Of a stretch of 33,127 nucleotides of DNA, positions 6,688-22,863 are shown piece after piece (positions within the stretch are counted from its first letter, which is position 1; every line of letters begins with the position of its first letter). A model generated the notes under the pieces. The model saw nothing but the letters and a program-made list of their open reading frames with translations. It was not told the origin of the DNA and ran no database searches. The position numbers and the translations under genes were made by a program. Source of the DNA: Chloroflexota bacterium (GTDB taxonomy: Bacteria; Chloroflexota; Chloroflexia; Chloroflexales; Chloroflexaceae); the NCBI GenBank assembly GCA_030550625.1, contig JAUQOZ010000134.1:1-33127 (forward strand), written 5' to 3'.

Positions 6688-9600
6688 TTAGCGCGCAATG
6701 TACGGAATCCAGATCCGTGGCACACTGAGCAACACCGGCGCTTCGAGCAACTGATTAGTGATAGCCGTCGAAGCATTGAGAATCTCGACAGTGTTGGTTA
6801 ATCCACCAGTCACTTGCGCCGGATTCACGGTCACCCGGAAGAGCAAGGTGAGCCGTCCGGGCGTATCGCCGCTTTTCGCCGGCACTGTGCGGTTGTTCCA
6901 TGTCAACACCGTGCGCCCGCCTGAGGTCGTGATCGCTGGCGCCGGGCCGCTGATCATGGCGTTATATGTCACCCCTGCCGGCAACACATCACGCAACGAG
7001 ATGGTAAAAGCGTTATCGGTTGGGTTCACGACCTCGATCTGGTAGAGGAAGGTTGGGTTAGGATCACCCGGATTCGTTGGCGGCAGCGAGGTGATATTTG
7101 CCGTCTTGGCGACCGCCGGCCCATCAACACAGATGCGCACAGTTGGATCAACCTCGCCGTCGGTGCGCGGGATGATGCCATCAGGACTCGTCACTTCGGC
7201 ACTCGTGCCCTGATCGCTCCAGACCTGCCCAACCTGCAACCAGATCGCTAACGGCAATTCACTGACATTGCTCGCAGCCGGCTTTGCCGGCACGGTCAGA
7301 TTGCGCCACACCAATTGGGTGGAACCAGCCTGCGCACCGCTAGTAAGCCGGATGATGCTATCAGGAGCCGGCATACCTGTGTCGGGTCGCAGATAGTTCA
7401 ACCCAATCGGCAGCGTCAACGTGACCGTCGTGTTGCGATAAGCGATGGTGTTCGTGTTGAGCATAGTCAAGGTGTAGAGACGTTCTTCCCCTGACACCGC
7501 GCACTCACTAATTCGCTCGATCCGTGGCGTGTAGGTGTGTAGCGGTTGGGTCGTTACTCGTTCCCATGCGACATCGTGCGTCCGGCCATCAATCGTATAA
7601 GTAGTGCAGCGATTGGTGCTACGGCAAGTAGCCGACAACAGGTTATCAGCCGTCGCCCGCGCATAGACATCGGCAGTGCCGATAATATCAGCCGCCGCTG
7701 CCCGGAAGAGAATATCAACTTTGCCATTGGCCGGTATCGAATTCACAGTCCACCGCACTTCAGTACGGCCATCCGGTAGCGCGCGCTGGCCGGCAAAGGC
7801 ATACAACGAGCTATTGACCGTCTCGCTATAGAGATAGCGCGGCGGCAAGATCGCGTAGGCACTCACGCCATTTAAGGCCGCATTCGGATTCAGATTGCGC
7901 ACCGTCACCGTAAAGAGACCACGGTCGCGCAAACCTAACGTCGTGCGTTCAGCCTTGATCTCAAAGTCGAGCCGGTTGCTCCCACAACGATAATCAATGA
8001 CTGCTTCAACAGGCGGACGTGGCGACACCCGTGTATTCCGCCCAGTCGTTGAGTCAAAGAAGTCGTAACCGACCGCATTTTTATACTTATCTGTAACACA
8101 TGGCGGATTGAAGAGTGTGCGCACCCGTACTGTATAACTCTGTCCGGGAGCAATTGTTAGCGTTGGCCATGCCCATGTATTGCCGCTGATATCTGGGGTT
8201 TGCTTGCCTGCCGGCAAATTGGTGAAGACAACACCCTGATATGCCAATTCAGGGATGGCAAAATCCACCAAACCAGCCGTGTAGGTCGTCGTCGTTTCGG
8301 CGTTAGTAATAACGAGGGTGAAGAACAGCTCCTGACCGCCGGGTGGAACTGAGCCAGAAATAATCTGGGTCGTGCCCAAATTGGCGCCGGCAGCGTCGCT
8401 AAAGAACTTACTCACCTGAATATTGGGCGTGATCCGCACACAGGCTCGCGCGATAGCAAAGGAAATTTCTTCACCCGGCTGCCCAGAATCAGGATTAATC
8501 AGGGCATCCTGCATGCGCGTTTGGTCGAGATCATTGCAGTAGGTGCGCGTCTGCAACTGACCGCGTGTGATCACGTTGTAGCGGATGTATTGCGTCTCTC
8601 CCGGCGCAAGCGTGATATTCTGCCAACTCAATGTGATGCGCTCGACCGATCCCACTACTGTCGAGCCCAGTGCCGGTTCAAAAGGCGCCGCACTATCGGG
8701 ATCGCCGCTATCAATCGTAGCGCTGCCCGTTACATAGGTAAAATCGGCTTGATTACCCGCCGGCAAGAGGTCATGCACCTCAATCCCGGTCATCGTGGTC
8801 GAACCGTTATTGGTCAACGAAACGATGTACTGGAAGGGTTGATTATTGCGAGCAATATAGGCGCTGCCGCTCTTTTCAGCTTCAGAGTATTTTTTAACTT
8901 CTAACCGCGGCACGACTTTAAACCCGCCCATATCGCTGCCAGCACACGTCTGTGGCACGCCGGCAGGCATGATTAAGTCGCCTAACGTTGTGCCAGAGCC
9001 GGTGCCATTGCCAACCGTCGAATAGCGCGCCGTCACCTCAAACGAAAAGCTCTGCTCAACCGGCGTGTTAATATTGCCCGCCCCAATATTGAATGTCCAT
9101 ATCAAAATGCCGCCATTGCCGGCGCTTGGCGGCTGTGCGGTGAACGAACCAACATTGCTGGCGCTGCCCGGCACATAACGCACATTCGGCTGCAACTCGA
9201 TCCGAACCTGCACGCCATTGAGCGCTTGCGGCCAATAATTGCGCACTTTGAAGGTAAAGCTGCCGCGTTCGCCGAAGATGATGGTCTGGGGCGGGCCGAA
9301 ATCCACCTCCGCCGGCGCACGAACGTTGTAGGCGATATCGCCAGTTTGTGGCGCAATCGTGTAGCGTTCGCTAGGCGGATTGAGCTTGAACGGCATCTCG
9401 TTACTGGTAACATAGTAGTCCACCTTGCGATTGATCATGCGCTCGCAAGGTAAGACATCGAGCTTGCGGAAGGTGACGAAGATATCAACTGTTTCGCCCC
9501 GTAACATTTGGGGAATCGTCCATACTAGCGCTGGCCGGCCATTGATCGTATCAATCGTTGGCGGGAAATTGGTGCGGTCAGGCCCGCGCACACTACTGAC

Positions 9601-10434
9601 AAATTCGGCGCCAAAGGGCACAATATCGGTCAGTTTGACTTCCGTGGCCGTAATCGCATCCTCGCGATCGACATTGGTGAGGCGCAAGCGGTATTCGCCG
9701 GTTTGCGTAGGAAAGATACGCGGATTCAGCCCGCTGGCAGTGCGCTCTTTTTCAAGCCGGAAAAGCGGCCCTTCTACCAGCGTTGAGGCATTGGCGATCG
9801 CGCGTGCGGTGCTTTCGCTGCCGACAAAGAATTCGGCTGAGGCCGAGGGCCGGCGCGGGTCTTTGCCAAATATCGGATAGACAAATTCCGGCACACGCAA
9901 TGCGATTTGGAAACTGCCGCTTGTACCATTCGCGAGATTGCCATCACCAATGGTATAGGTAAAGCCGCCTACCGCTGTCGTTGAATTGTAATCAGGCGCA
10001 CCGCTGCGTGTGATGGCCGGCCCGCTGACATTGAACGCCACACATGCATTGGCGCCGCTGTCGCGACAGTGTTGCTGAAATTTATCGGGGTTGAGCGTTG
10101 TCGGACGAGCGACGCTCCAGAAGTTCCACGTGATTTTAATGCGGGCATTGCTCAGAGTAGTACCACTATTATTACTATAAGTCACCGTGTAAATGAGATC
10201 TTGCCCGCTGCGAATCCGGGCCGGCGAAGCCAGAATGGTTATGCTAACGCCACTTTGGTTCAGCACGATCGGCGCAGGTGCAGTCGCCGGTCCGGCAGGC
10301 GCTGCGCTGTCACGACTAGCGGTCGCTGGCATTGCAGCAATGTCAGCCTGACGAGCTTGGGCAAGATGCGTGTTAAGAGGAGCGAACAGCAGGGAAAAGA
10401 CCACCACAAACCACAATACATTTTGTTTTGGCAT
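6688..10434 (-). CDS. Large secreted surface protein with repeated DUF11-type beta domains
   Basis: 1,248 residues from the chosen start. A signal peptide (MPKQNVLWFVVVFSLLFAPL, cleaved near residues 25-30) is followed by many DUF11-like Ig-fold domains, recognisable by recurring patterns such as YTVTYSNNSGTTLSNA, EVHDLLPAGNQADFTYVTGSA and ISLRDVLPAGVTYN. Such domains build extracellular stalks or sheaths. I chose ATG 10434 over GTG 10449 because CTAGGAG lies just before the ATG at normal spacing and the GTG start would place the ribosome binding site inside the coding region. The protein ends PRIWIPYIAR, sharing a terminal motif with the proteins at 16436-20167 and 28094-30178. No LPxTG or C-terminal membrane segment is present. 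The promoter is probably at 10503-10511. Confidence 0.9.
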   Translation of the reverse strand: MPKQNVLWFVVVFSLLFAPLNTHLAQARQADIAAMPATASRDSAAPAGPATAPAPIVLNQSGVSITILASPARIRSGQDLIYTVTYSNNSGTTLSNARIKITWNFWSVARPTTLNPDKFQQHCRDSGANACVAFNVSGPAITRSGAPDYNSTTAVGGFTYTIGDGNLANGTSGSFQIALRVPEFVYPIFGKDPRRPSASAEFFVGSESTARAIANASTLVEGPLFRLEKERTASGLNPRIFPTQTGEYRLRLTNVDREDAITATEVKLTDIVPFGAEFVSSVRGPDRTNFPPTIDTINGRPALVWTIPQMLRGETVDIFVTFRKLDVLPCERMINRKVDYYVTSNEMPFKLNPPSERYTIAPQTGDIAYNVRAPAEVDFGPPQTIIFGERGSFTFKVRNYWPQALNGVQVRIELQPNVRYVPGSASNVGSFTAQPPSAGNGGILIWTFNIGAGNINTPVEQSFSFEVTARYSTVGNGTGSGTTLGDLIMPAGVPQTCAGSDMGGFKVVPRLEVKKYSEAEKSGSAYIARNNQPFQYIVSLTNNGSTTMTGIEVHDLLPAGNQADFTYVTGSATIDSGDPDSAAPFEPALGSTVVGSVERITLSWQNITLAPGETQYIRYNVITRGQLQTRTYCNDLDQTRMQDALINPDSGQPGEEISFAIARACVRITPNIQVSKFFSDAAGANLGTTQIISGSVPPGGQELFFTLVITNAETTTTYTAGLVDFAIPELAYQGVVFTNLPAGKQTPDISGNTWAWPTLTIAPGQSYTVRVRTLFNPPCVTDKYKNAVGYDFFDSTTGRNTRVSPRPPVEAVIDYRCGSNRLDFEIKAERTTLGLRDRGLFTVTVRNLNPNAALNGVSAYAILPPRYLYSETVNSSLYAFAGQRALPDGRTEVRWTVNSIPANGKVDILFRAAAADIIGTADVYARATADNLLSATCRSTNRCTTYTIDGRTHDVAWERVTTQPLHTYTPRIERISECAVSGEERLYTLTMLNTNTIAYRNTTVTLTLPIGLNYLRPDTGMPAPDSIIRLTSGAQAGSTQLVWRNLTVPAKPAASNVSELPLAIWLQVGQVWSDQGTSAEVTSPDGIIPRTDGEVDPTVRICVDGPAVAKTANITSLPPTNPGDPNPTFLYQIEVVNPTDNAFTISLRDVLPAGVTYNAMISGPAPAITTSGGRTVLTWNNRTVPAKSGDTPGRLTLLFRVTVNPAQVTGGLTNTVEILNASTAITNQLLEAPVLLSVPRIWIPYIAR

Positions 10435-10502
10435 ACCTACTCCTAGCACGAATTGAATGACGTGAATGCTGCAATGCTCGTTATGGAGAGTCTACCACGT
10501 AC

Positions 10503-16435: not shown

Positions 16436-19400
16436 ATGGCGCGACGGCTACTCTTACTCGTCTGTCTACTCACGATGCTGGCCGTGACGTTGCCTCCACC
16501 GGTTATTCAAGCCGAACCGGGCGAGCCGCCAGCGGCGCTGAGCGATACGCCAGCTATGCTCGGAAGTGATGCCTATAGCGCACTCTATTACAAAGCGGGT
16601 ATGGTCTTTTGGGCCGCTAATCCCCTCACCTGCACAACTTTTGAGTTTCCTGAGGCGTGCCAGATCCGGCAGGTAATTCCCGGCGGCAGCCAACGAACCA
16701 TCTACGATAGCGGCGCTGATGGACCCTTCATTGTGTCAAATGTCGCCGTTGATAATGCTTTCGTGTACTGGATCGGCAGCGATTTCACGATCAAGCGCAA
16801 ACCCATCTATAGCGCCAACGACGAGAACGCCGAAACGCTGGCGAGCACCGCCCATACCACCGCTACCCTGCAATTCTCGCTCGACGTTGATGATAATTTC
16901 ATCTTCTGGACAGAGAGCATTCCCAGCGGGACGGGCCGCGTCGGAAGACTATATCGCATGCCCAAGAACGGCGGCCCACGCCAGTTGATGCAGGAGTTTA
17001 ACCAACCGATGAGTAAGGTGCGCGCCGATGGCGCCGGCGGCGCATTCTACATCGCGCCGCTCTTTACCAATCTCCTGCTGCAGACGGTTCCTAGCGGCAG
17101 CGGCTTTACGACCTCGTTGGAAAACCGGCCGTTTGGCGTACAAGCGTATGCTGTGACGGCCACCCATTTCTATTGGGCCGAGAAGGTTACGAATTTGATT
17201 ATCAAACGGGCGCCGCGCAACAATCTGACTGCCGTTGAAACGCTGGCCAATCGCGGCAATGTCAGTAATCCGAACGCAAGCGGCATTGTGGTGTATGGCG
17301 ACACGATCTTTTGGCACGAAGTGCGTTCGAACATCGGTCCGCTTTACCGGCTGCGACTCGGCGGATCACCGGAAGCGATCACTGACGATCAAATGATATC
17401 AAGCGGCATGTTTGTCAACGATCGTTTCTTGTACTGGAACAACAGTAATGTCTATCGCTTGTCAGTGAATGCCTCGGCGTGGACGATTGATCTAGGTGTG
17501 AACGCGATGGAAATCATCCAAGCCGTGCAACGGCCGGCCAATGACGTGCCGCTGGTCAGCGACAAAGAGACCTTTGTGCGCGTCTTTGCCCAAATCGTGA
17601 GCAGCAATCCGCCACGCTCGACCGTAAACATTTGGCCTGCAGCCTTGCTCTATGGCACGCGCAGCGGCGTGCCATTGCCCGAATCTCCGCTCATGCCGTT
17701 GCCGCCGGGCTGGAATGAGGTGCGTAGTAGTGCGCCAAACCGCCGCAATGTCAATGATGGCTTCTGGTTTCGCCTGCCGGCCTCGTGGAGCGATGGGACG
17801 GTCGAGTTGCGGGCAGTGGTGAATCCGCGCCGGGTGCTCAGCGAAACATCGTATGCCAACAATGAGCTGACCCGTACTGTCACCTTTGTGCGCAAAGCGC
17901 CGATCTGTCTCGATTTGCGGCCAGTTGCTACCGAACGCGGTACGACCATTGCTACCATCCCTCGATCAGGCGAAGGCGCATGGTTCTACTCCTTCTTCCG
18001 CAAGGCTGAACAGTTACTGCCCACCCACGAACTGCGCGTCATCGCGCGCGGTGGCGATCCGCTGCGCAAACCGCGCTGGTATCTGTTCGAGAGCGATCCG
18101 TTCGGCCTCTCAACAACCAATGCTGATAGCGGTTTGATGGTGTTTCTACTCAATGTGAACACCCTCTTTGACCGCAATCTCTGCACCAACGGCGGCGATA
18201 CGATCAAAACTGTGATGGCGCAGGATTTTCCCGGTCGTGAAGTGAATGGAATCCAATTCGGCAATGCCCTGCTCTTCTTCGCGTTTTGGAGTCCGGAAGG
18301 CGGATTTATCGAAAACACACCCGGAGGAGGGGTGACATTAGCGCATGAAATCGGGCATTACTACGGGCGCGGACATATCAACTGCCCGCCCGGAGTCCCT
18401 TCTGGAGTTGATGGCGGGTATCCCTACCCAAGCTGCCAGCTTGATCATACCGGCCCTAATGAGCATATCGGGCTTGATGTTCGCCCAGCGGGACGCAGCT
18501 TGCTCGTGCCGGACAGCACTGGCGATCTGCTGTCGTATGCCCACCACATTTCCCTACGACGCTGGCCTTCTGACTACACATGGCGCGCCATCTTCAACCG
18601 GTTGGCGCCGCGCAGCGGGCCGGCAGCGTTGACCGTCGCCCCTGACGCAACACCGGCCGCCGCCTTCTCGTACATCGTCACCGGCTTCGTTACCGGCAAT
18701 ACTGCCGAGCTACGTGAGATCTACCAATTCTCCGATCCGCTGCTCAGTGAAGTGACCACGCGCATGAATGCAATCACTGCGCCAAGCAGCGCCTTCCGCA
18801 TTCGCGCCTACAACGGCGCCACCCTGCTCGTCGATCAGCAATTGCGGGTTAATGAAGCGACGGCGGAAACCGGGCCGGGCCAGACCGAGCCGGATATGAT
18901 AGGCTTCTTCCACCGGCTTGATCTGGGGGTGAAACCAACCCGGATCGAGATTGTGCGCGTTGCCGGCGGCGCGGTGATTGGCACACGCAACGCCTCGCCC
19001 AATCCGCCCACGGTGACGATGACTGCGCCGGCGGCTGGCAGCAATGTTGACCGCACGCTCACCGTGAGTTGGAACGCGAGTGACGCCGATGGCGATCTGC
19101 TCCACCATCTGGTGCGCTACAGCGGTGATAATGGCGCGACGTGGAGCGTGTTGGGCCAAGGTTTGACCGGCAATAGTCTGACGGTTGATCTGAGCGGCAT
19201 GCCCGGCGGTACGCAAGCGCGGGTGCAGGTCATTACAACGGATGGTCTCAACACGGCGATCGCCACTTCAGCTCCGTTTAGCGTGCCGCGTCGCGCGCCG
19301 CAGGTGTTTGGGCAAGCCGAAGGCGGCATCTTCTTCCCGCTCAATGAGCCGGTTGTGCTCCGTGGCGACGCCTACGACCCCGAAGATGGGCCGTTAGCCG

Positions 19401-20167
19401 GCAACCGGCTGGCGTGGGAGGTGAGCGGGCCGGTAACGCGCACCGGTGACGGCTTGCAATTCACCCTGCTTAACTTGCCTCCCGGAACCTATAACGTCCG
19501 GCTGCGCGCCACCGACAACGACGGGCAGGCAGGCGAAGCCACCTTCGCGTTCGTAGTCGAACCGAAGCGGGTGGTTGATGGCGCTGCGCCGGAGATCGAC
19601 GGCTTCTGCGACGATGAGGGCTATAGCGCCGATCCCGACCCAATCACGCTCTGGTATAACGCCGGTACGGCTACGGCGACCAGCGCGCAGGGCCGGATGA
19701 TTCGCAGCGGCGATTATCTCTACCTCTGTTTGAATGGGTTGCCGCTCAGCGGCGTTTTGAGCGATGGGATACGGATCAAGTTTGATCCCGACAACAGCGC
19801 CGATACTGTCCAGCAGAGCAGCGACCTTATCTTTACGATTGATCGTACCGGCGTTGTGCGCAGCGGGCGGGGCAACGGCACCAGCACCGACCAATTCGAT
19901 CCGGTGGCGCAAGGTATTCTGGCGGTGTTCAGCCAGACGAGCGACAACTGGAGCGCCGAACTGCGCATCAACGCCAACCTCATGGATGGCTGGAACAAAC
20001 GTATCCGAATGACGGTACGGCATGAGTGGGTTGGATTGGGCTTGATCCCCAGCGGCTCGTCGGTATGGCCGGCAGGCGGCGGCGCTAGCAGTCCGGCAAC
20101 GTGGGGTTTGGCGGCGTTGGGAGATGTACCCGGCAATCGTATCTACACGCCGTTAGTGATGCGGTAA
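16436..20167 (+). CDS. Very large secreted protein with metzincin-type metalloprotease site and C-terminal binding domain
   Basis: 1,243 residues. A signal peptide (about 1-26) is followed by about 320 residues with repeated FVYWIGSD/FIFWTES/FLYWNNS strands, suggesting a beta-propeller. A CARDB-like or Ig-like region follows (to about 485), then a catalytic region with HEIGHYYGRGH at 637-647, exactly the HExxHxxGxxH zinc motif of metzincins. Ig/fibronectin-like domains follow (about 850-1045). The C-terminal domain from DGAAPEIDG resembles CBM9/DOMON-type binding modules. The protein ends GNRIYTPLVMR, a tail shared with two other secreted proteins here. AAGGAGGG lies seven bases before the ATG. 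Peptidase activity is likely, but the protein fits no single named family that I recognise. Confidence 0.9.
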   Translation: MARRLLLLVCLLTMLAVTLPPPVIQAEPGEPPAALSDTPAMLGSDAYSALYYKAGMVFWAANPLTCTTFEFPEACQIRQVIPGGSQRTIYDSGADGPFIVSNVAVDNAFVYWIGSDFTIKRKPIYSANDENAETLASTAHTTATLQFSLDVDDNFIFWTESIPSGTGRVGRLYRMPKNGGPRQLMQEFNQPMSKVRADGAGGAFYIAPLFTNLLLQTVPSGSGFTTSLENRPFGVQAYAVTATHFYWAEKVTNLIIKRAPRNNLTAVETLANRGNVSNPNASGIVVYGDTIFWHEVRSNIGPLYRLRLGGSPEAITDDQMISSGMFVNDRFLYWNNSNVYRLSVNASAWTIDLGVNAMEIIQAVQRPANDVPLVSDKETFVRVFAQIVSSNPPRSTVNIWPAALLYGTRSGVPLPESPLMPLPPGWNEVRSSAPNRRNVNDGFWFRLPASWSDGTVELRAVVNPRRVLSETSYANNELTRTVTFVRKAPICLDLRPVATERGTTIATIPRSGEGAWFYSFFRKAEQLLPTHELRVIARGGDPLRKPRWYLFESDPFGLSTTNADSGLMVFLLNVNTLFDRNLCTNGGDTIKTVMAQDFPGREVNGIQFGNALLFFAFWSPEGGFIENTPGGGVTLAHEIGHYYGRGHINCPPGVPSGVDGGYPYPSCQLDHTGPNEHIGLDVRPAGRSLLVPDSTGDLLSYAHHISLRRWPSDYTWRAIFNRLAPRSGPAALTVAPDATPAAAFSYIVTGFVTGNTAELREIYQFSDPLLSEVTTRMNAITAPSSAFRIRAYNGATLLVDQQLRVNEATAETGPGQTEPDMIGFFHRLDLGVKPTRIEIVRVAGGAVIGTRNASPNPPTVTMTAPAAGSNVDRTLTVSWNASDADGDLLHHLVRYSGDNGATWSVLGQGLTGNSLTVDLSGMPGGTQARVQVITTDGLNTAIATSAPFSVPRRAPQVFGQAEGGIFFPLNEPVVLRGDAYDPEDGPLAGNRLAWEVSGPVTRTGDGLQFTLLNLPPGTYNVRLRATDNDGQAGEATFAFVVEPKRVVDGAAPEIDGFCDDEGYSADPDPITLWYNAGTATATSAQGRMIRSGDYLYLCLNGLPLSGVLSDGIRIKFDPDNSADTVQQSSDLIFTIDRTGVVRSGRGNGTSTDQFDPVAQGILAVFSQTSDNWSAELRINANLMDGWNKRIRMTVRHEWVGLGLIPSGSSVWPAGGGASSPATWGLAALGDVPGNRIYTPLVMR

Positions 20168-20272: not shown

Positions 20273-22741
20273 CTAACATTCGCTATAGCCGCACGAATGG
20301 CACTTGCGGCAACCCTCTTCGTTCAGCAGCGTCGCGTTTTGGCATTCGGGGCAGATTTCGCCCGCCTCAATCGCGCCGTGACCCGGCTCAACGTGCAGAT
20401 GCGTCACCGGCGCCGGCTTGGGTGCAGGCGGCTCAACGATACCGTTGCTGTATTCGCTGCCAAAGGCATACTCGCCGTTGTAATAGCCGTTGCCGTTGCC
20501 ATTTCCATTGCCGTTCCCGTTGCCCTTCACGTAGTGATCGAGCAACACCTTGCCGATCGCATCAGGCACCGAACGCACCCGATCCGGGCCAAAGCCCGCC
20601 GAGCGCGAACCGCCGATCCCGCGCAGTTGCTCGGCGATCAGCTTGACCGGCACGCCACAACGCAGCGCTAGCGAGATCAGCCGCCCGATCGCCTCGGTGA
20701 AGGCGGTGACATCACTGCCGGCCCGGCCAATGATCGCAAAGACCTCAAACGGCTTACCCTCCAGCTCGGTGACGAACAGGCGCAGCTTGCCGAGCGGCGT
20801 CACCACCGGGAAGGAGTGGCTCGGCAGACCCTCGGCAGGCACCGGACGCGGGGTGAGTTCCACCGGCGCTGGAGCGGCTGGCTGCTCAGCCGGCTTGCTC
20901 TCGCTCTTGCCGGTCGAACCGGTTGACAACACCTGATTCGCCCGCGAGCCGTCGCGGTAGACGGTAATCCCCTTGCAGCCAAGGCGGAAGGCTAGCTCGT
21001 AAGCCTCGCGCACTTGATCGGGCGTCGCTTCGTGGGGGAAATTGATGGTCTTTGACAGGGCGCTATCGGTATACTCCTGAAACGCTGCTTGCATGCGCAC
21101 GTGCCATTCGGGTGAGATGTCGTGGGCCGTCACCCACACTCGCTGCACCTCGGCAGGCACTTCGGGGTGATGGATGTGGCCGGTGTCGGCGATCCGCTCC
21201 ATCAGCTCGGCGCTATACCACCCCTCGCGCTTGGCTTGGGCCACAAAGTCTTGGTTAATATCGAGCATGCGGGTATCGGCCTGATAGCGCCAGAAGGCGA
21301 TCGCAAACAGCGGCTCGATGCCCGACGAGCAGCCGGCGATGATGCTAATCGTGCCGGTGGGAGCGACGGTGGTCACGTTGCAGTTACGCAAGAGGCGCTG
21401 CGGGCGAACGCGCGAACCATCGGGCCGGCGGGCGCAGGTTGCATCCGGCCCCCAGATGCTGTACTCCCATTCGGGGAAGGGGCCGCGCTCGCGGGCCAAC
21501 TGCTCGGAAGCGACTTTGCTCTCTTCATCGAGGAAGTGCATCACCTTGCGCGCCAGCTCGATCGCCTCGTGCGAGTTGTAAGGTACACCCAGCTTCACCA
21601 GCATATCGGCCCAACCCATCACCCCCAACCCAATCCGGCGGATGCGCTGGCTCAGTTGAGCAATCTGCTCGAGCGGGTAATGGTTAGCGTCGATCACATT
21701 GTCGAGGAAGCGGGTGCTCTCATGCACCACCTCGCGCAGATGTTCCCAATCGATCTGCTTATCGGGGGTCACGAACTTGCCCAGATTGACCGAGCCGAGG
21801 TTGCAGACATCGTAGGCCAGCAACGGTTGCTCGCCGCACGGATTGGTCGCCTCATACTCGCCGAGATGGGGCACCGGATTATACTCATTGGCGCGGTCGA
21901 TGAAGAACAGGCCGGGTTCGCCGGTAGCATGGGCGCACTGCACAATCAGGTCAAAGACCATACGAGCGCGGAGCCGCATGGGCTGGCCGGGTGGCACCAG
22001 CACCTCGCCAGTCAGCGGATGCTTCAGCCCTTCGCGGGAGGCGATATGCACTTGGCCGGTGCGCGGATTGATCAGATCGTATTCCTCGTCACGATCCACC
22101 GCGCGCATAAAGGCATCGGTAATCGCCACCGAGATATTGAAATTGGTGATCTTGGTGGTATCGAGCTTGCAGGTAATAAACTCGAGAATATCGGGGTGAT
22201 CGCAGCGCAAAATACCCATATTCGCGCCGCGGCGGGTACCACCCTGCTTAATCGCCTCGGTCGAATGGTTATAGACATCCATAAAGCTGACCGGGCCGCT
22301 GGCCACTCCCATCGTGCTGCGCACCACATCATTGCGTGGGCGCAGGCGCGAGAAGCTAAAACCGGTGCCGCCACCGCTTTGGTGAATAAGGGCCTGATGC
22401 TTGAGCGTCTCGTAAATGCTGGTGAGGTTATCCTCAATCGGCAACACAAAACAGGCGCTCAATTGGCCAAGCGGGCGACCGGCGTTCATCAGCGTCGGGC
22501 TATTCGGCTCGAAATACCCCTGCGTCATGAGGTGGTAAAATCGCTCGGCCCGCTCTTCGACCTGCTCGGACGAAGCGCCATAACGCGCATCGACGGCGGC
22601 AATCGTCTCGGCCACCCGCCAAAACATCGTCTCTGGCGTCTCGATCACATCACCGTGCTCGTTTTTCAGCAGGTAGCGCTTCTTCAACACCGTGCGGGCG
22701 ATGTCGGTCAGGTTCGCAGGGGCAAGCTCTCGTTTCATCAT
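20273..22741 (-). CDS. nrdJ: Class II (adenosylcobalamin-dependent) ribonucleoside-diphosphate reductase
   Basis: 822 residues. It reduces ribonucleotides to deoxyribonucleotides using a radical from adenosylcobalamin, without oxygen or a second subunit. Visible features: NSPTLMNAGRP and LSACFVLPIEDN, GGGTGFSFSRLRP, and the active-site block NPCGEQPLLAYDVCNLGSVNLG, which holds the catalytic Asn, Cys and Glu. PTGTISIIAGCSSGIEP and GCKGITVYRDGSR follow. A TSCPD-type domain (LRLFVTELEGKPFEVFAIIG) comes next, then an Asn-Gly repeat linker and a C-terminal zinc ribbon ending CRKCHSCGYSEC that may supply redox cysteines. I chose ATG 22741 (a second ATG is at 22738) because AGAGGAG lies upstream and the family N-terminus starts here; GTG 22801 would add unrelated residues. 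Promoter and NrdR-like sites are at 22864-22958. Confidence 0.95.
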   Translation of the reverse strand: MMKRELAPANLTDIARTVLKKRYLLKNEHGDVIETPETMFWRVAETIAAVDARYGASSEQVEERAERFYHLMTQGYFEPNSPTLMNAGRPLGQLSACFVLPIEDNLTSIYETLKHQALIHQSGGGTGFSFSRLRPRNDVVRSTMGVASGPVSFMDVYNHSTEAIKQGGTRRGANMGILRCDHPDILEFITCKLDTTKITNFNISVAITDAFMRAVDRDEEYDLINPRTGQVHIASREGLKHPLTGEVLVPPGQPMRLRARMVFDLIVQCAHATGEPGLFFIDRANEYNPVPHLGEYEATNPCGEQPLLAYDVCNLGSVNLGKFVTPDKQIDWEHLREVVHESTRFLDNVIDANHYPLEQIAQLSQRIRRIGLGVMGWADMLVKLGVPYNSHEAIELARKVMHFLDEESKVASEQLARERGPFPEWEYSIWGPDATCARRPDGSRVRPQRLLRNCNVTTVAPTGTISIIAGCSSGIEPLFAIAFWRYQADTRMLDINQDFVAQAKREGWYSAELMERIADTGHIHHPEVPAEVQRVWVTAHDISPEWHVRMQAAFQEYTDSALSKTINFPHEATPDQVREAYELAFRLGCKGITVYRDGSRANQVLSTGSTGKSESKPAEQPAAPAPVELTPRPVPAEGLPSHSFPVVTPLGKLRLFVTELEGKPFEVFAIIGRAGSDVTAFTEAIGRLISLALRCGVPVKLIAEQLRGIGGSRSAGFGPDRVRSVPDAIGKVLLDHYVKGNGNGNGNGNGNGYYNGEYAFGSEYSNGIVEPPAPKPAPVTHLHVEPGHGAIEAGEICPECQNATLLNEEGCRKCHSCGYSEC

Positions 22742-22863
22742 TGCTAGAATGCTCCTCTGTTGGACAAACCATCGGCACGCGGAGAAACCGGGATAGCACA
22801 CCCAAAAGTGTAAAGAATTATTTTAACTTTCATCACGACGCGGAAAGCCGGCACTAGAGGTAG

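Follow-up and report, generated by a model that had tools for sequence, protein, structure and literature searches.

The open reading frame (ORF) at positions 16436-20167 (forward strand) of contig JAUQOZ010000134.1, from a Chloroflexota bacterium of the family Chloroflexaceae, raises the question of whether a protein with a zinc-binding motif in its middle is a genuine peptidase and where it would act. The whole stretch analysed, 33,127 nucleotides long, is hereafter called the window. An original prediction had read the motif HEIGHYYGRGH as a metzincin zinc site, flanked by an apparent beta-propeller and by immunoglobulin (Ig)-like and CBM9-like domains, and had proposed an extracellular protease that could attack the sheath of its own cell or neighbours in a mat. 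The motif indeed lies mid-protein in a single ORF coding for 1243 amino acids, with a Shine-Dalgarno sequence (AAGGAGG) 8 bases 5' of the ATG. The protein has a hydrophobic, signal-like N-terminus, read from the sequence, in line with the proposed extracellular location. We judge it fairly likely that the gene codes for a zinc endopeptidase of metzincin type, exported and probably kept at the surface, whose Met-turn carries a leucine (Leu699), its activity, anchoring and substrate being what we infer.

HEIGHYYGRGH is the sole HExxHxxGxxH when the window is read in all six frames (200 base shuffles gave a mean of 0.01), and shuffling the residues of the protein 20,000 times never produced the pattern; a chance motif was rejected on these counts. 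Relatives were sought with the central 424 amino acids in 61 genomes, its own included, and 23 gave matches. In alignment A1, made of 21 relatives, the zinc histidines and the glutamate are invariant, together with Cys650, the aspartate and tyrosine of a D-x-x-S-Y turn and a tryptophan behind the turn. Among 301 genomes sampled from the phylum, the A1 profile found matches in 20, and a scan of GTDB contigs yielded at least 114 stretches encoding relatives, 80 of which were kept. Among the matches listed, these belong to Chloroflexota, Verrucomicrobiota, Planctomycetota, Gemmatimonadota, Acidobacteriota, Myxococcota, Nitrospirota and some Proteobacteria. The pattern HE..H.....H is found in 103 of the 105 relatives aligned at the site. 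The remaining two (L027 and L063) have glutamine at the first zinc histidine (QELAHNYGRKH) and, from their sequences, may be natural dead enzymes of the family.

The original prediction had asked for a Met-turn behind the zinc motif. The turn is present but its methionine is not: aligned to the family it reads D-L-L-S-Y, with Leu699 at the methionine position. Metzincins are defined in part by a methionine in a 1,4-turn beneath the zinc site, which the window protein, as judged from the alignment, lacks. This residue has been called absolutely conserved, in more than 700 metzincins, and the debate on its role still draws on mutants (PMC1266349). Among 105 of 111 non-redundant relatives the position is occupied by methionine in 99, leucine in five and isoleucine in one. 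Leucine is found in the window protein, its orthologues of similar length from Chloroflexus islandicus (92.3% identity) and Chloroflexus SKYG63 (80.1%), Candidatus Chloroploca (Khr17, L088) and Mangrovimicrobium (L092), and isoleucine in the product of a second gene of G003 (L049), a genome which we take to be C. aurantiacus. Codon 699 is CTG in the window and in C. islandicus and TTA in SKYG63, while it is ATG in homologues from G003 (L036) and Roseiflexus sp. 629F.7 (L035). These two have the same length and 55-56% full-length identity, but they carry the turn methionine (DLMSY, DVMSY) and lie at other genomic sites. A tree of 93 rows needs at least four changes of the methionine; in it the three leucine rows from Chloroflexus group together with support, and the rows closest to them, G003 and Roseiflexus 629F.7, carry methionine. 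Members of M66 are reported to be devoid of the methionine (PMC7518263), so that on this point the window protein is like M66 and unlike most of its own family.

A leucine at the turn in all three Chloroflexus orthologues found beside trpD could mean that catalysis was lost with the methionine and that the domain now serves a surface adhesin for binding or as a structural part. The many adhesion-type domains of the protein fit such a pseudo-protease, as do the two relatives with glutamine for the first zinc histidine, which leave room for dead members. However, all zinc ligands and the glutamate are kept in a gene that is intact and under purifying selection: for the whole gene the ratio of nonsynonymous to synonymous substitution rates (dN/dS) is 0.14 in comparison with C. 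islandicus and 0.10 with SKYG63, and for the catalytic domain it is 0.17 and 0.10, respectively. A pseudogene was likewise rejected from the open frame, the orthologues and dN/dS. Engineered Met-to-Leu enzymes are active, with minor effects in MMP-2 and activity partly kept in protease C, according to PMC1266349, and M66 enzymes are active though reported without the methionine (PMC7518263). Loss of catalysis is quite improbable, and the protein is most likely an active, exported endopeptidase.

The core, amino acids 362-736, was modelled by AlphaFold2 with a predicted local distance difference test score (pLDDT) of 75 and a predicted template modelling score (pTM) of 0.80. Foldseek placed ADAM10, ADAM8, ADAM17 and leucurolysin on top for this model, with 10 matches at E<=0.001, and matched its front part to the CARDB domain 2kl6, directly before the protease. 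VIA-align, a second look at the Foldseek candidates only, ranked StcE (3ujz) first, with Z 13.1, a root-mean-square deviation (rmsd) of 5.1 and 289 residues aligned across the Ig-like and catalytic domains (model residues 1-372), followed by adamalysin II (Z 11.5, rmsd 3.3, 177 aligned). StcE was absent among the 50 Foldseek matches listed and came first only in the second look. The A1 profile, searched against the PDB, found leucurolysin first (1.1e-4), then ADAMs, serralysins and ulilysin (60 of 184 matches listed). A fold without a metzincin cleft, the outcome that the original prediction had named as speaking against itself, did not appear: both structural programs rank metzincins first for the core and the PDB profile search agrees. 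By AlphaFold2, Foldseek, VIA-align and profile search the predicted catalytic fold is that of a metzincin and, as modelled, the protein is structurally closest to StcE/M66 and to the adamalysins.

Each of the two known systems is matched in part. With StcE the window protein shares HExxHxxGxxH and an Ig-like domain followed by a metzincin-like core, both covered by a single unbroken structural match, but it has no Pfam M66 match, and 99 of 105 relatives have the methionine. The accessory domains of StcE also differ from the propeller and tail domains found here. The likeness to adamalysins and ADAMs (M12B) is in the core fold, with Z ~11 over ~180 residues and the top profile and Foldseek matches, while structural alignments have only ~10-15% identity, methionine is replaced by leucine and the accessory domains are bacterial. 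M12B enzymes carry aspartate after the third histidine, where the window protein has isoleucine (HINC).

PF10462 (M66) matched neither the window protein, nor its central region, nor its genome, and the reprolysin family (M12B) had no match in the protein and only matches below cut-off in relatives. In a Pfam scan of six relatives, the 686-residue L045 was above the M66 cut-off (4.5e-8), beside weak reprolysin matches. At E<=0.01, members of A1 match Reprolysin_5 (9/21), M66 (6/21) and CARDB (5/21). The M66 model matched 6 of the 61 genomes, always at places also found with the central-region query, which shows that those M66 places belong to the same family as the window protein.

The resemblance to StcE raises the alternative of an O-glycoprotease that cleaves densely glycosylated surface proteins, of its own sheath or of mat neighbours, with accessory domains binding glycans. 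It is favoured by StcE being the best structural match, over two domains, by the relative above the M66 cut-off and by the turn methionine missing as reported for M66 (PMC7518263). The adamalysin matches are nearly as good, however, the M66 model does not recognise the protein and Pfam names no glycan-binding domain in it. Adamalysins are not known to be glycan-dependent. Such a specificity appears unlikely.

The cysteines near the zinc site were counted, from the third histidine through the turn and the next residue, in 102 distinct relatives. One cysteine plus MSYC is present in 67 and two cysteines, none after MSY, in 28; four have no cysteine and three further patterns occur once each. The window protein is of the two-cysteine type (Cys650, Cys667). 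The sequences suggest that a single disulfide is formed with either of two partners, the cysteine of the Met-turn (MSYC) or that of the preceding loop (YPxxC); this partner switch is a lead, not proof. We propose tentatively, with nearly as much credence as doubt, that a widespread, unnamed bacterial metzincin family bridges the adamalysins and StcE-type M66, that within it the turn methionine disappeared in nature on at least four occasions while the zinc site stayed intact, and that the cysteine after the zinc helix swapped its partner (MSYC versus YPxxC).

The catalytic domain is embedded in a series of further domains (Table 1). Amino acids 40-1235 were modelled with pLDDT 79.8 and pTM 0.54, a value so low that it leaves the arrangement of the domains undefined. 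The propeller of the original prediction is borne out by its superposition on WD40 folds (Cdc20, G-beta and others; VIA-align Z ~24, ~270 aligned). The Ig-like flank also stands, with Pfam Big_7 above cut-off at amino acids 858-886 and PKD/CopC/fn3 hints below cut-off at 872-1041; an additional CARDB/Ig-like domain directly before the protease had escaped the prediction. The CBM9-like domain fared differently: a beta-rich C-terminal domain is predicted, but Pfam and PDB profile searches gave no CBM9 match for it, the domain not having been folded or fold-searched alone. The predicted folds of this domain and of the Ig domains are tentative. A profile built from the C-terminal domain found matches in 12 of 41 genomes, some of them in other proteins. 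An internal duplication between the Ig region and the C-terminus was rejected (best E 0.03).

Table 1. Features of the metzincin gene and of its remnants elsewhere (window positions unless a locus is given; aa, amino acids)
Feature	Position	Strand	Basis
Whole gene, multidomain secreted metzincin, 1243 aa	16436..20167	+	ORF; near-equal-length orthologues in C. islandicus and Chloroflexus SKYG63
Putative signal peptide, aa 1-26 (MARR, hydrophobic core, IQA/EP cut)	16436..16513	+	Sequence
WD40-like beta-propeller, probably seven-bladed, aa 40-347	16553..17476	+	AlphaFold2 model and VIA-align
CARDB/Ig-like beta-sandwich, ~aa 355-490	17498..17905	+	Foldseek 2kl6 CARDB; Pfam CARDB in relatives
Metzincin catalytic domain, ~aa 484-727	17885..18616	+	Profile search, AlphaFold2 model, Foldseek, VIA-align
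Zinc site HEIGHYYGRGH, aa 637-647	18344..18376	+	Sequence, family alignment, six-frame motif scan
Cys650, 3 residues past third zinc His; invariant in 21-row alignment A1	18383..18385	+	Alignment
Cys667 (YPYPSCQ), putative Cys650 partner in relatives without Cys after Met-turn	18434..18436	+	Inferred from Cys counts
Met-turn D-L-L-S-Y, aa 697-701, Leu699 instead of Met	18524..18538	+	Family alignment
Ig-like domain 1 (Big_7/fn3-like), ~aa 855-950	18998..19285	+	Pfam; strands in model
Ig-like domain 2 (PKD/CopC-like), ~aa 963-1041	19322..19558	+	Pfam below curated cut-offs; strands in model
C-terminal beta-rich domain, ~aa 1046-1232, of no named family; shared with further Chloroflexales proteins	19571..20131	+	Model, profile searches
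C-terminal tail IYTPLVMR, like YLP-box-like tail of many relatives	20141..20164	+	Sequence; no NF050076 match
3' remnants of protease gene, G042 and Chloroflexus G006	L172:7620-7841; L173:8255-8543		Flanks ~93% identical between the two

The order of domains had not been recognised in the original prediction as that of a known family, and no Pfam or NCBIfam family matches it. The order is not a one-off, however. At least 300 amino acids in frame precede the CARDB/metzincin unit in 60 of 102 distinct relatives, and a model of the window propeller matches 23 of these 60, six of the 23 being rows used to build the model. The relative L046 has a sortilin/BNR-type propeller upstream instead. As read from these sequences, the architecture recurs in other bacteria. 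A search of the open literature (M66 in Chloroflexi, YLP-box, Chloroflexus metalloprotease) found no paper on this metzincin family. A phage origin was rejected, with no match among 50,697 phage records.

The protein ends in a tail similar to the putative sorting motif of the NCBI model NF050076 (YLP-box). With a loose pattern, 27 of 81 sequences, among them the window protein, have YLPLVxR-type tails. NF050076 matches two places of the genome that the window belongs to at E<=1, the protease gene lying at neither. A second exported-looking protein of the window (6688-10449, reverse strand), with 1253 amino acids and DUF11 repeats, has the C-terminal end RIWIPYIAR, resembling the tails of the protease and of many of its relatives. 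Tails of these two kinds are possibly a shared sorting signal in Chloroflexales.

In the proposed mechanism His637, His641 and His647 would bind zinc and Glu638 would be the general base. Leu699 would fill the hydrophobic floor beneath the zinc site, and Cys650 and Cys667 may staple the loop after the zinc helix. The propeller, Ig and C-terminal domains would select or tether the substrate at the filament surface or in the mat. The enzyme would work like M66 and adamalysin peptidases, as a member of a widespread unnamed metzincin family lying between them. Several points weigh against this interpretation. No peptidase family of Pfam or NCBIfam matches the protein, and NF050076 does not match the tail by which it would be anchored. 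The core model is only fair, with loops below pLDDT 50 near the cleft. The GTDB scan pattern includes part of the zinc motif, and conservation of the site is therefore partly built in for the loci found with it. The Met-turn tally leaves out the six of 111 sequences that do not cover both sites, with non-redundancy judged on the last 150 residues only, and 31 of 89 inner branches of the quick tree are open. The kinetics of protease C are compromised by the Met-to-Leu change (PMC1266349). The cysteine switch counts three independent events (starred pairs), and most pairings have all three going the way expected (sign test p 0.25); with so few events, the near-perfect raw table and its Fisher value mostly reflect relatedness.

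In the window as in C. islandicus and SKYG63, the gene is flanked by trpD on one side and by the gene for ribonucleotide reductase on the other. The window comes from a Chloroflexus: its central region is 93% identical to C. islandicus (L078), and its trpD product is 95-99% identical in the seven other Chloroflexus genomes searched. In G001, G003, G004 and G005 (the last presumably C. aggregans) trpD adjoins the reductase gene and the protease gene is absent, tblastn finding no remnant at 1e-3; in G006 no reductase match was found beside trpD within the stretch taken. The G003 homologue stands at a different genomic site. At a second site ~92% identical flanks link Roseiflexus 629F.7, where the gene is intact, with G042 (presumably Roseiflexus RS-1) and Chloroflexus G006, which have only its last 60-75 codons; from these sequences the remnants are read as loss of the gene at a site that different families have in common. 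The comparison indicates an accessory gene that moved between, or was lost from, mat phototrophs. An operon partner was rejected, the neighbours (trpD, TrkA-type, ribonucleotide reductase, amidohydrolase and aminotransferase genes) being housekeeping-looking.

Presence or absence at the trpD-reductase site among Chloroflexus genomes, and the second site shared with Roseiflexus, would suit a general nutrient-scavenging exoprotease exchanged as an accessory gene among mat bacteria. The elaborate binding architecture rather suggests targeting and no peptide uptake gene was found beside the protease gene, which makes this role doubtful. A secreted protease promoting aggregation of C. aggregans (Morohoshi 2015, an entry in the reference list of PMC11434263) was set aside, the central domain having no match in G005.

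The reductase gene itself differs at this locus. The C. islandicus orthologue of window 20273-22801 has an in-frame insert of ~366 codons (L033:11341-12440, reverse strand) that matches LAGLIDADG_3 and intein-splicing models, and the window copy has no insert. The SKYG63 reductase match starts at the same residue, near the contig end.

If it is real, the bridging family would offer a natural test of why metzincins retain the turn methionine and a place to seek the ancestry of the Met-less M66 mucinases. Several natural changes to leucine or isoleucine, and Met-bearing homologues at ~55% identity in related thermophiles, make a clean swap test possible. Many exported proteins of Chloroflexota, Verrucomicrobiota, Planctomycetota, Gemmatimonadota and myxobacteria that now lack annotation would also gain a family worth a name.

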